IMG/VR virus record: IMGVR_UViG_3300039191_000410
Span: 1-20,753 of that record
Direction: 5' to 3' (one strand)
Source of the DNA: a virus
Length of the DNA stretch: 20,753 nt
A program made the translations under genes and the position numbers. The notes beneath the pieces were generated by a model. That model had not been told where the DNA came from. It worked only from the letters and a program-made list of their open reading frames with translations, and ran no database searches. Of the stretch, positions 596 through 14,069 are shown piece by piece; the first letter of the stretch is position 1, and each line of letters starts with the position of its first letter.

Positions 596-1418
596 ACCAA
601 ACTTCATTGTTTGTATCAGGGTTAGATTTTAATTCTTGGATATAATCGGTATATTTCATTTTCCTAAACCCATTATCTTTTGGGTTCAATATATCATCTA
701 GAAATTCTATACCATTTTTGAAATTATTTTCTTGGATATAATCATATAGATTTTTATATGTGGTTATAGTTTCTTTATATTTTTCGGGGTTTACATCTAT
801 TAGAGTTTTCTCTCTCCTAACAACTTTCCCCAACTCTTTGACTATTTTTTTAAAATACTTTTCCTTAAAGAAATTATTAAGGGATTTGTCCCTACTTATC
901 CATTTTTTATGTATCAATTTATATAATCTATATACTGATAACTTTATAATTACATAAGGTGAATTGGATAAATCTTCTCCTAGAATACTCAATTTAGGAA
1001 AAGCATTTGGATCTCCTAAATTGAAGTCTCTATTCGGACTTACAAATATTTCATCCTTTAATGGTATAACTTTATAAACTGAACCATTTCGATCCCAATT
1101 TTTTGCATAGTCAAGACTACTGGTTGATACTAATGATTTTTTACGGTCAGTAAAATTTTGCCATGATGGAAGTATTTCTATTAATTCACTCATACCACCT
1201 CTTGTTTTTCGATCTCCCTCTATTCTATAAATAAAGTTATCAGATAAATCATCAAAAAGATTAGGTTTCTTTGTTGTTTTATGATTTCTATAAATCTGTG
1301 GATCATTTGGATTCCACTGAAAAGGAATTAATTCATTAATACTTTCTTGATCGACATCATCTATCTTCTCTCGGAAAGATTCAAATGTCATTAAGTGTGC
1401 ACGATGGTAAAATATCAA
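567..1418 (-). CDS. Tagged ADP-ribosyltransferase-like protein, candidate Alt-type head effector
   Basis: A 283-residue protein if started at 1418; the ATG at 1391 (MTFESF) is an alternative that keeps the shared N-terminal tag. Possible ART elements appear in order: an arginine on a predicted strand (FIYRIEG, about residue 65), an STS triplet (LVSTSSLDYAKNW, about residues 97-101), and a glutamate on a hydrophobic strand near the C terminus (NEVWFMSDCILL). That R / S-T-S / E order is the layout of arginine-specific ADP-ribosyltransferases such as T4 Alt and ModA. A lysine-rich helical insert separates the last two elements. T4 Alt is carried in the head and modifies host RNA polymerase; a like role here is inference. 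The 5' end overlaps a truncated copy of the same gene, and the original start may have been lost in that rearrangement. The enzyme call is tentative. Confidence 0.5.
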   Translation of the reverse strand: MIFYHRAHLMTFESFREKIDDVDQESINELIPFQWNPNDPQIYRNHKTTKKPNLFDDLSDNFIYRIEGDRKTRGGMSELIEILPSWQNFTDRKKSLVSTSSLDYAKNWDRNGSVYKVIPLKDEIFVSPNRDFNLGDPNAFPKLSILGEDLSNSPYVIIKLSVYRLYKLIHKKWISRDKSLNNFFKEKYFKKIVKELGKVVRREKTLIDVNPEKYKETITTYKNLYDYIQENNFKNGIEFLDDILNPKDNGFRKMKYTDYIQELKSNPDTNNEVWFMSDCILLK

Positions 1419-1626
1419 CTAACTCACTCATTGTTCCCTTTAAAAACCTATCTTTACTTTTATCTACTCTATGAATAAGTATATCTCCCACTTCAATATT
1501 ATCTGGAACATCATGTGATCTATATATTTGTGGATCATTAGGATTCCATTTATAATTCAGAAAATCATTAATTCTATCATCAGTTATTTGTTCAACAAAA
1601 GATTCAAATTTTTTGAGGTGTTTCAT
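1381..1626 (-). pseudogene. Truncated tandem copy of the ART-like gene
   Basis: An 81-residue frame starting MKHLKKFESF that is clearly a paralogue of the next gene downstream: both have WNPNDPQIYR, an arginine strand (ILIHRVD against FIYRIEG) and MSEL[VI][DE]ILPS. Similarity stops just after ILPS, and the frame ends six codons later inside the 5' end of the other copy. The STS and final Glu elements are missing, so it cannot be an active transferase. The junction looks like a deletion between tandem copies that removed the 3' part of this copy and the 5' end of the next. It starts two bases after the stop of the 1629-2060 gene. It may still make a short tagged peptide. Confidence 0.6.
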
Positions 1627-1628
1627 AT

Positions 1629-2060
1629 TTACCTAAATTTATCGACATACTTCTTAAAATCTTTTTTAATATTATTGGGTAAATCATCCCATGTTAGATC
1701 AGCTACAGTATTTGGATAATCATAATTTGTAGTAAAATGGTCTAAATCTATTTCTTCAATAAATTCCCAAAGGGTTTCCACATTAAAGTCTACAAGTTCA
1801 TCATCAGTCATAGGCATATCAGGATAATCTTCTCTAAGATCACCCGATAAAATTTCACTATAACTATCACCTCTTTTTTTAAAGTTTCTGATATAATCTA
1901 AATCTTCTTTTGATATAGCTCTTAATAACTCTTTATCTAATCGACTTAAAGACATAATACCCTTTGAAGATATTCTATCTAATATACTATTTTGTATGTC
2001 TTCATATTCACTGATAGCTACCTTTTCGTTATATTGTTTAAAGTTATTTAAAAATCCCAT
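1629..2060 (-). CDS. Tagged protein with ILDRIS-type motif, function unknown
   Basis: The protein has 143 residues if started at MGFLNNFKQYNEKV, which I prefer because it matches the N-terminal tag of its neighbours; an ATG at 2087 would add nine residues. After the tag comes a segment reading ILDRISSKGIMSLSRLDKELL, similar to the short helical motif (ILDKIS..G..SLT..EK..L) found at the ends of many Bacteroidota proteins. The C-terminal half is acidic and ends in a lysine-rich helix. It is followed two bases later by the truncated ART copy, so the genes are probably cotranscribed. No enzyme motif is visible. A head-packaged small protein is one possibility, based only on the tag. Confidence 0.7.
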   Translation of the reverse strand: MGFLNNFKQYNEKVAISEYEDIQNSILDRISSKGIMSLSRLDKELLRAISKEDLDYIRNFKKRGDSYSEILSGDLREDYPDMPMTDDELVDFNVETLWEFIEEIDLDHFTTNYDYPNTVADLTWDDLPNNIKKDFKKYVDKFR

Positions 2061-2105
2061 ATCATATATATTATTTCTAAATTTCATATTTTAAAATAAA
2101 TGAGA

Positions 2106-12708: not shown

Positions 12709-12751
12709 ATAATAATTTTAGATATTATACTTTGAATCAGATATTTTGTTT

Positions 12752-12985
12752 TTATATTTCACCACTTTTATTGTGATCTATTCCATATTTACTTTTATAC
12801 CATAACCTTTCATGGAAATAATAAAGTATCATCTTAGTGAATAACTCTACTCCCCCAATCTTTAATCCAACCAAAGGGTTTCCTGATATTAACCACGCAA
12901 GTAACATAGTATCTAGTGTACCCACAATTCTCCATGTGATGGTTTTTAAAATATGTCGTTTTTTATCTATCTTTGGTTTTTCCAT
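12752..12985 (-). CDS. DUF2061 membrane protein
   Basis: 77 residues. It matches the small DUF2061 family: KTITWRIVGTLDTMLLAWLISGN, then GLKIGGVELFTKMILYYFHERLW. Two hydrophobic segments (about 15-34 and 39-57) are followed by the conserved YY.HER.W end. Members are integral membrane proteins of unknown role, common in Bacteroidota and often near sulfate-assimilation genes. It is the first gene of the run leading to glutamine synthetase, 43 bases upstream of it. An AATTTAATATATA element starts six bases before its ATG, so if this is a promoter the mRNA would be almost leaderless. Confidence 0.85.
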   Translation of the reverse strand: MEKPKIDKKRHILKTITWRIVGTLDTMLLAWLISGNPLVGLKIGGVELFTKMILYYFHERLWYKSKYGIDHNKSGEI

Positions 12986-13037
12986 ACCGTTATATATTAA
13001 ATTAATTTTGGTTTAAGGTAAAGATTATTTACTTTTA

Positions 13038-13517
13038 ATGAAAACACACTTTAAAGATAAAAACATGAATATAATTTTAATTGGAAATTACAGTGATACT
13101 CTTAGGTATTCTAGTATGTTAAGTAAAGCATATGATTTGATAAAAATAGACAGTGACTTAGTATTAAGTCAAAATAATATTATTGTTGGTAAAAGTGGGA
13201 TGCAGTCTCTATTTGAAACAGTGTTTCATACTTTAATGTTAGAACACATGCAAGTTATGTCTTTTCACCAATTAAAAACTGGATTTGTGTTTATAAAATA
13301 CCCAAAGCATAAATCACAAATTTCAGCAATTGAAAGGAAATTTAATACTAAAATGGATTTAATCATTGATTTATCTGATGGTAAAATGATTAATGATTTG
13401 GATGAGTCAGACGTTCCATTACTTACTATAGACAATAGTAAAAGCTCTGAGGAAATTGGTAATGAAATCCGAAAGTCAATTGTAAGAAGATTTATGAAAA
13501 AATCTGTGGGTTTATAA
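13038..13517 (+). CDS. Hypothetical protein
   Basis: 159 residues; the ATG at 13068 (MNIILIGNYSDTLRY) may be the true start since the first strand of the fold begins there. The order strand (NIILIG), helix (TLRYSSMLSKA), strand (LIKID), then FVFIKYPKH and MDLIIDLSDG looks like a Rossmann-type alpha/beta domain, but there is no P-loop or other known active-site motif. The C terminus is basic (RKSIVRRFMKKSVGL). It is divergent from the DUF2061 gene and its 3' end overlaps the tagged gene at 13512 by six bases in convergent order. No family recognised. Confidence 0.75.
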   Translation: MKTHFKDKNMNIILIGNYSDTLRYSSMLSKAYDLIKIDSDLVLSQNNIIVGKSGMQSLFETVFHTLMLEHMQVMSFHQLKTGFVFIKYPKHKSQISAIERKFNTKMDLIIDLSDGKMINDLDESDVPLLTIDNSKSSEEIGNEIRKSIVRRFMKKSVGL

Positions 13518-14069
13518 AATAAAGTTTGAGATATCAGCTCCATGTTCTCCTAAAATATTCAAAATTTCTTCAAAATAATATTGAGATGGTCTACCATCTT
13601 TAATAAAGGATATAGCTGTTCTTTTATCTATTTGTCCGATTTTTTCTTTAAATTCTGAATCTGGTATATCTGTTTCTTCTAACATATCAATGATCTCCAT
13701 TCTATTTAAAATATAAAAATCTTGTTTTTCCCTATCCATTGTTTTAGCAGTTTTAGGAGAATCGATTTTTTCATTTATTTCGTTATCCATTATAGACTTC
13801 AATATCTCGTGAAGCAATTCATCACCGGGAAGATCCAACCTACCTTCTTTATGTCTATTTTCAAGATTTTTGAGCAAAACATTTAAATCATCATATGTTT
13901 TTAGATTTTCAATAGCTCCTAACAAATCAGATAAACTATATTTCTCTTTAACATCATCAGAAAGACTATCTATAAATTTATATGTTGGTAATAGTTGTTG
14001 TACCAAAAGAGGTAGATCATCTTCATGAATTGACTCGTTAATTTGATTGAATTTCTTTAAATGTTTCAT
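13512..14069 (-). CDS. Tagged helical protein, function unknown
   Basis: 185 residues starting MKHLKKFNQINESIHEDD, one of the clearest examples of the shared tag; I-N-E followed by S is an ideal site for a gp21-type protease. The rest is acidic and nearly all helix, with LLVQQLLPTYKFIDSLSDDV, then LSDLLGAIENLKTYDDLNVL, and a C-terminal block SQYYFEEILNILGEHGADIS. No enzyme motif is visible. An ATTAATATATAA element lies 22 bases upstream of the ATG. Probable internal head protein by the tag; otherwise unknown. Confidence 0.8.
   Translation of the reverse strand: MKHLKKFNQINESIHEDDLPLLVQQLLPTYKFIDSLSDDVKEKYSLSDLLGAIENLKTYDDLNVLLKNLENRHKEGRLDLPGDELLHEILKSIMDNEINEKIDSPKTAKTMDREKQDFYILNRMEIIDMLEETDIPDSEFKEKIGQIDKRTAISFIKDGRPSQYYFEEILNILGEHGADISNFIL

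Follow-up and report, generated by a model that had tools for sequence, protein, structure and literature searches.

A shared N-terminal tag as a candidate capsid-targeting sequence in a viral DNA fragment and its huge-phage relatives

What does a phage gain by beginning many of its proteins with the same few residues? The question is raised by a 20,753-nucleotide stretch of viral DNA (IMG/VR virus record IMGVR_UViG_3300039191_000410, positions 1 to 20,753; roughly 28% GC), here called the window. An earlier note, made from these letters, listed nine window genes whose products share a start of 8-12 residues. It proposed that this start is a capsid-targeting sequence (CTS), akin to the one that takes phage T4 internal proteins (IPs) into the prohead and is cut by the gp21 protease. 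The nine proteins would be packed in the head and injected with the DNA. The shared N-terminal tag is real. Furthermore, we consider it likely that the tag is a T4-type CTS of the form M-K-[HY]-[LI]4-K-x-[FY]7-...-[hydrophobic]-x-E↓[S/N/A] (arrows mark proposed cuts).

Within the window, the tag is captured by the rule M[KRNQTEGS][HYFNVKD][LIVM][KRNQ]x[FYIL], followed by Glu or Gln within seven residues. On both strands together, 230 ATGs open at least 30 codons, and eight of them fit: those at 1626, 2060, 3184, 3484, 7932, 8446, 10377, and 14069. All eight belong to the nine genes first listed, the coordinates and N-termini of which were correct, and no other start fits. When residues 2-18 of the 230 starts were shuffled 1000 times, 0.37 starts fitted on average and at most 3. 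The tally of nine comes down to eight intact tags, as the product of the gene at 1391 begins MTFESF and satisfies none of the rules. Likewise, the claim that the nine share nothing after the tag does not extend to the products of 567-1391 and 1381-1626, which are 43% identical over 63 residues beyond residue 14 (E 2e-14); two further pairs show weak matches only (E 0.011 and 0.058). The window rule was shaped on the window sequences themselves, so the independent test lies in other genomes.

The window portal gene served as the anchor for finding relatives by tblastn. Its product is 64% identical to that of LR756502 (642 kb), 61% to LR745206 (635 kb), 56% to LR756504 (636 kb), 50% to LR756501 (735 kb), and 36% to LR756500 (462 kb). 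Identity is 27-31% for Sphingomonas phage PAU, Lak phages, and Tenacibaculum phage PTm1. The available part of PMC7162821 assigns genomes larger than 634 kb to the Mahaphage clade, with predicted Bacteroidetes hosts, and places Lak-A1 in the same clade.

Genome LR756502 was taken whole, and its genes were called by a simple finder of our own with the first ATG as the start, so gene counts and starts are approximate. The window rule fits 108 of its 926 N-termini, compared with 8 of 3551 internal Met residues and a shuffle mean of 2.1 (maximum 7). In LR745206, 87 of 908 N-termini fit (internal Met 7/3363; shuffle mean 2.2), followed by LR756500 with 27/641 (2/1976; 1.8) and LR756501 with 13/962 (9/4233; 2.3). 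Elsewhere, the counts are 0/291 in PAU, 2/241 in the part of PTm1 analyzed, and 1/250 in T4. As proposed, the tag yields a genome-wide list of candidate cargo. A narrower rule fixed on LR756502 marks 98 of 926 proteins, 4 of 3551 internal Met residues, and none of 824 wrong-frame open reading frames (ORFs), with a shuffle mean of 0.77; it picks up just three of the eight window tags. A variant of the narrower rule, yielding 101 tagged proteins, underlies the later LR756502 analyses. An unsupervised anchored mixture model places about 155 of the 926 proteins in the tag class.

A general rule, intended for any lineage, asks for a hydrophobic pair at residues 4/7 or 5/8, a basic residue, and a Glu step by residue 14 in proteins of at least 40 residues. 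It marks 130/924 proteins in LR756502 (shuffle mean 7.2, maximum 16), 105/907 in LR745206 (8.4, 15), 63/959 in LR756501 (7.8, 17), 33/638 in LR756500 (6.4, 19), and 24/291 in PAU (1.9, 6). PTm1, again in part, is not above its shuffles (5/237; 1.5, 5), and T4 is barely above (7/249; 1.6, 6), with IPII, IPIII, and gp24 among the T4 matches. In the window, the general rule with its cleavage step finds four of the eight tags plus two starts inside other genes (10653 and 18814). By these counts, one tag appears to serve roughly 90-130 mostly unrelated accessory proteins in each of the nearest complete relatives. For the window's own genome, we infer the scale from relatives 36-64% identical at the portal; the window itself has 8 tags in 20.7 kb.

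The tag is also visible in DNA searches. The pattern MK[HY]-[aliphatic or F]-[KR]-x-[FY] occurs 71, 64, 34, and 14 times in LR756502, LR745206, LR756504, and LR756500, and 2, 0, 3, and 0 times when read backwards. It is absent from LR756501, PAU, Lak-A1, and PTm1 and occurs once in T4. The pattern for MKHLKx[FY]NE plus two bases matches 48 stretches in viral contigs and none in the bacterial and archaeal genome collection; its residue-permuted counterpart has no match in viral contigs, and a KIFE form of the tag pattern matches 20 stretches. The 48 stretches, chosen for a single tag, hold many more: 136 of their 577 called genes are tagged, the selected ones included.

Not every huge phage shows the tag in abundance. 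The mixture-model gain for Lak-A1, which has no control of its own, is 142, similar to the internal-Met controls of five other genomes (133-144); the gain is 138 for T4, and 109 for PTm1 versus 138 for its own internal-Met control. Because Lak-A1 belongs to the Mahaphage clade and shows no abundant tag by this model, huge phages do not all share the system. A few Lak-A1 proteins do have another common start (MNKNIKKLLESLFDDD, MNTNIKKLVESLFDDD), which may be a small tag family particular to that phage.

Behind the tag, the carriers are mostly unrelated. Stripped of their first 14 residues, 98 tagged LR756502 proteins fall into 75 clusters: one of 22, two pairs, and the rest single. Among 437 reciprocal best pairs between LR756502 and LR745206, 29 are tagged in both genomes by the general rule and 15 + 15 in only one (Fisher P 2e-23); by eye, both members seem to carry the tag in some of these 30 one-sided pairs. 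Orthologues are rarer for tagged genes (44/130) than for others (393/796). Inside the LR756502 tag, the codons for Lys, His, Leu, and Tyr vary. We therefore set aside a cassette conserved at the DNA level and favor selection on the protein, despite an over-use of C-ending His and Tyr codons at position 3. There, His is CAC in 31 of 51 cases (34% genome-wide) and Tyr is TAC in 18 of 38 (22%; P <0.001 each), an excess that possibly stems from spread of the tag-coding start by recombination.

The register of the tag recalls T4. Unsupervised expectation-maximization (EM) on residues 2-9 returns a tag class that is hydrophobic at positions 4 and 7 in LR756502, LR756500, PAU, and LR745206, and a class shifted to residues 5 and 8 in LR756501. 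The EM gains, compared with internal Met, are 734 versus 139 in LR756502, 267 versus 138 in LR756500, and a modest 168 versus 133 in PAU; the gain of 590 in LR745206 comes with no internal-Met control. For T4 IPIII, the accessible passages of PMC9026906 state that the first ten residues alone are required, with targeting mainly by residues 4 and 7 and processing by residues 8 and 10. The MKTYQEFIAEA start that the earlier note ascribed to T4 internal proteins and Alt is that of IPII and IPIII; IPI starts MKTFKEFTST, and Alt reads MELITELFDE.

Behind the tag lies a step resembling a prohead protease site. In LR756502, where the first Glu of the tag falls at residue 8 to 12, 84 of the 101 tagged proteins have hydrophobic-x-E within residues 7-14, compared with 200 of the 825 untagged ones, and Ser follows the first Glu in 42 of 101 (7.5% genome-wide). 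The capsid-protein propeptide presumably ends at a similar step, which reads HQINE↓N, HQMNE↓N, HELYE↓N, and, in PAU, ALME↓N. According to Table 1 of PMC5646251, a source available in part, N-terminal sequencing shows the 585-residue PAU capsid protein to be 520 residues long after processing; ALME occupies residues 61-64, one residue off that length. Scaffold repeats carry a like step (IAE↓N), and hydrophobic-x-E occurs in the scaffold 48 times in LR756502 (shuffle mean 24, maximum 36), 39 times in LR756501 (22, 30), and 49 times in LR745206 (26, 37).

Candidates for the components that such a pathway calls for occur in the relatives. An S77 protease domain was detected in all eight relatives searched at E <= 0.001, in four of them over the Pfam cut-off, and a gp23-type capsid protein was likewise found in eight of eight. 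In LR756502, the protease-scaffold gene sits between the portal and capsid genes. This fusion (225437-227371) contains a repeat run, [IL]AE(N/S/H)...YSEY.

A further line comes from phage PAU, whose GenBank record names five "internal capsid protein" genes: gp70, gp142, gp154, gp199, and gp270. The PAU tag, MK[TSGNH][LIV]xx[LM][YFL], is present on four of these five, on 22 of all 291 genes, and at none of 1367 internal Met residues (P 1e-4). Most tagged PAU genes are not so annotated, and the annotation was therefore probably not made from the tag. In its typical form, MK[TS][LI]xxLYE↓A, the PAU tag has the same anatomy and register as the huge-phage tag; it differs in having its own consensus and fewer carriers. 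One 128-residue part of gp142 has a single weak PDB match (E 0.008), and gp154 has none. Our survey of titles, abstracts, and passages, with most subscription papers outside its reach, found no description of the tag in huge phages or PAU.

When would tagged proteins be made? Comparison of the regions upstream of tagged and other genes yielded the motif TAATATAT. We scored TAATATAT/AATATATA within 70 nucleotides upstream in two related genomes, with genes named by T4 and PAU homology (some from weak matches, E up to 1e-3) and RNA ligase, tagged in both genomes, put in the tagged class. The motif precedes 11 of 19 virion genes and 4 of 42 replication or nucleotide genes (P 1e-4), a contrast that is independent of how the motif was discovered; the contrast between tagged (118/235) and other genes (274/1538) is not, and as the two genomes share orthologues, the counts themselves are not independent. 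In the window, the motif lies upstream of six of the nine genes first listed (random 70-mers, 4.5%), and the remaining three lie 2 or 15 nucleotides behind, or overlap, one of the nine. We regard the motif as a putative late promoter common to tagged and virion genes and rare on replication genes, and the tagged accessory proteins are probably made late.

The T4 late promoter is TATAAATA. A T4 motif, TATA[AT]ATA, was tried upstream of tagged genes and rejected (LR756502, 18/130 versus 71/796 others; LR745206, 10/105 versus 85/803); TAATATAT was found instead. The window combines a gp55-type late sigma factor homologue (14169-14537) with TAATATATA sites, and the late-promoter candidate of these huge phages, TTAATATATA, is unlike the promoter of T4.

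The tagged proteins are mostly unfamiliar. Across 99 tagged LR756502 proteins (the other two of the 101 lie across fetch borders), Pfam recognizes 3 families: phage lysozyme, SET, and, as a weak match, a carbohydrate-binding domain. In 99 size-matched untagged proteins it recognizes 45. The general-rule sets, in which 2-8 chance members per genome are expected from shuffles, contribute more: 105 LR745206 proteins add 11 families, and 126 of a further 129 proteins (LR756502, PAU, and LR756501) add 39, of which 25 were listed. A T4 Rnl1-type RNA ligase is tagged in both LR756502 and LR745206. A tagged LR756502 2H phosphoesterase best matches the 2'-5' RNA ligase superfamily (E 2e-11), with the anti-CBASS family Acb1 as its second match, just over the cut-off (28.4 versus 27 bits); relatives of this protein in viral contigs were sought, and none was confirmed. 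Tagged DHH phosphoesterases occur in both genomes, below the cut-off, and NUDIX, nucleotide cyclase, GNAT, and PPK2 are among the other families. In the available part of PMC7824862, Iyer and colleagues describe 2H, DHH, and Nudix proteins as jumbo-phage counters to nucleotide-signal defences; tagging would put enzymes of these types into the virion. The tagged enzymes suggest a preloaded counter-defence payload.

The register of the tag, the step resembling a cleavage site, the protease and scaffold, the upstream motif common to tagged and virion genes, and the PAU annotation all agree with capsid targeting, though none perfectly. The notion is that the tag is a removable N-terminal propeptide of about 8-13 residues on proteins that would be expressed late. 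Its lysine-rich segment, hydrophobic at positions 4 and 7, would attach the new protein to the prohead's scaffold core. The protease part of the protease-scaffold fusion, of S77 type, would cut after the tag Glu, and the matured protein would stay in the head with the DNA and be delivered at infection. Like the CTS of T4 IPI, IPII, and IPIII, which gp21 cuts, the tag is N-terminal, about ten residues long, starts M-K, is hydrophobic at 4 and 7, and, in most LR756502 carriers, has a hydrophobic-x-E step near its end; its carriers are otherwise dissimilar, and the relatives have gp20 and gp23 homologues and a putative S77 protease. Unlike the T4 CTS, the huge-phage tag has H/Y at 3, K at 5, N/S around the cut, its first Glu at residue 8 to 12, and many acidic carriers, and the same rule that marks 7 of 249 T4 genes marks 105-130 carriers in each of two genomes. 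Another parallel exists in the head proteins of phages SPN3US and phiKZ, whose propeptides, removed by the prohead protease, have been proposed to act like the T4 CTS. The accessible passages of that work describe four SPN3US propeptides of more than 100 residues and one of 20, cutting at A-x-E, and eight of about 50 head proteins processed, and they note only one paralogue pair with identical first 15 residues (PMC5694885). Compared with the T4-type CTS, the tag system appears greatly expanded and new in scale.

Several observations weigh against capsid targeting. The earlier note overstated the cleavage step: only four of the nine window N-termini (2060, 3184, 7932, and 14069) have hydrophobic-x-E at the tag Glu, with S/N next in three by reading, and the other five read [K/T]-F-E. 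Net charge is negative in seven of the nine window proteins (8446, -25; 14069, -15; 2060, -13), a departure from T4, whose IPI-III are described as basic in the available text of PMC9026906; we therefore class the window proteins as carriers of a CTS-like tag, not as T4 IP homologues. Their homologues in the compared proteomes are marginal at best (E 0.001-0.005), so their cargo role is argued from the tag. The gp21-like protease that the earlier note said to look for was detected in the relatives, where the S77 match is below the Pfam cut-off in the four largest (20-25 versus 27 bits), and tblastn found neither protease nor capsid gene in the window. The general rule fails on T4 IPI; Lak-A1 and PTm1 have the protease and no tag abundance above control; and PAU gp70 is untagged despite its annotation. 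Of 22 other window genes tested, 7 likewise have the upstream motif, among them a FolD-like gene; the window portal gene has a variant in place of the exact form, and the motif counts carry the dependence described above. The tagged lysozyme could be an ordinary endolysin. Finally, we found no virion proteomics of the window phage or its huge relatives in the literature surveyed.

Other explanations fare less well. The low GC content of the window, and the one cluster of 22 tagged proteins homologous after the tag, might point to an apparent tag produced by AT-richness, through biased start codons or translation initiation, or by one big paralogous family. The earlier note had named a random start bias as a way for its proposal to fail. 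We regard this explanation as extremely improbable and already contradicted: the internal-Met, wrong-frame ORF, and shuffle controls, the rarity of the backwards pattern, the varying synonymous codons, the 75 clusters, and the occurrence of one DNA pattern of the tag in viral contigs, where its permuted form is missing, but not in the bacterial and archaeal collection, all speak against it. The tag might instead be a docking signal for another site in the cell, such as a membrane, the replication compartment, or a phage-built vesicle, with the Glu-Ser step incidental. Its basic, amphipathic sequence would also suit membrane or nucleic-acid binding, and our survey found no virion data for these phages. 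We nonetheless think it quite unlikely, given that the step behind the tag resembles capsid-protein and scaffold sites of the same phages, that the upstream motif of tagged genes is one found before virion genes rather than replication genes, and that the PAU tag is present on four of five annotated internal capsid proteins.

A further alternative keeps the tag as a head-targeting signal and makes its carriers mostly prohead core or scaffold proteins, cut up and lost at maturation as are T4 gp67 and gp68. The acidity of seven of the nine window proteins, the tagged gene directly behind the portal gene (the place of gp67 in T4), and the tag on PAU gp152, itself annotated as scaffold, all fit. 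Yet about 100 mostly unrelated core proteins in one phage are hard to justify, and the enzymes of the looser rule (RNA ligase, 2H and DHH phosphoesterases) would be useless as scaffold; we deem this alternative rather doubtful. We return to capsid targeting as the reading with the most support, with three corrections to its first formulation: intact tags number eight, two of the nine proteins are homologous, and seven of nine are acidic.

We speculate, at roughly even odds of being right, that the largest phages carry a preloaded injected proteome, in which a lineage-specific short code marks about one-tenth of the genes as head cargo, with counter-defence enzymes (T4 Rnl1-type RNA ligase, Acb1-related 2H phosphoesterase, and DHH phosphoesterases) included. 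If so, such enzymes would be at work ahead of any phage transcription, and the cargo could be read from genome sequence alone. Hundreds of huge-phage genes have unknown function; as a capsid code, the tag would place about 100 per genome in the virion, predict which proteins meet the host first, point to new counter-defence factors, and supply a portable packaging signal.

Table 1. Tagged genes, landmark genes, and late-promoter-like motifs in the window.
Feature	Coordinates	Strand	Basis or remark
Portal vertex protein (T4 gp20 family), untagged	3520..5229	-	tblastn; anchor for relatives
T4 gp55-type late sigma factor homologue	14169..14537	-	PHROG 234 "late sigma transcription factor", E 6e-7
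274-residue protein MTFESF..., without intact in-frame tag; homologue of 1381-1626	567..1391	-	Fails tag rules
Tagged protein, 81 residues, MKHLKKFESF; short homologue of N-terminal part of 567-1391	1381..1626	-	Window tag rule; 43% identity/63 residues, E 2e-14
Tagged protein, 143 residues, MGFLNNFKQYNE	1629..2060	-	Window tag rule; weak Pfam DUF6576, E 1.8e-5, below cut-off
Tagged protein, 46 residues, MEYLNSYKIFES; 15 nucleotides behind 3200-3484	3044..3184	-	Window tag rule
Tagged protein, 94 residues, MSHIKKFESF, directly behind portal gene	3200..3484	-	Window tag rule
Tagged protein, 77 residues, MEYLRKFNES	7699..7932	-	Window tag rule
Tagged protein, 163 residues, MKYLRKFETY, net charge -25	7955..8446	-	Window tag rule; PHROG 21416 (unknown function), E 6e-6
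Tagged protein, 123 residues, MKDLKHLKTFENF	10377..10748	+	Window tag rule
Tagged protein, 185 residues, MKHLKKFNQINES	13512..14069	-	Window tag rule
Late-promoter-like TAATATATA upstream of 2060	2065..2073	-	
Late-promoter-like TAATATATA upstream of 3484	3508..3516	-	
Late-promoter-like TAATATAT upstream of 7932	7942..7949	-	
Late-promoter-like TAATATATA upstream of 8446	8464..8472	-	
Late-promoter-like TAATATATA upstream of 10377	10342..10350	+	
Late-promoter-like TAATATATA upstream of 14069	14092..14100	-	

The adjoining genes 567-1391 and 1381-1626 look like a partial tandem duplication: the shorter gene has an intact tag, and the longer one is without it. The T4 record mentions that the first part of alt was duplicated long ago (alt.-1, alt.-2). 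The idea that 567-1391 encodes an Alt-like ADP-ribosyltransferase was dropped, as searches of viral contigs and phages returned no relative and those of solved structures no credible one; a single-sequence model with a predicted local distance difference test (pLDDT) score of 33 was useless. The longer ORF 567-1418 matches PHROG 12810, a family of unknown function (E 1.3e-11). Besides the late sigma factor, the window encodes a head-closure protein, a baseplate wedge protein, and a clamp loader. By reading of their translations alone, further products resemble IF3 (11128-11679), glutamine synthetase (11683-12708), and FolD (18385-19245).

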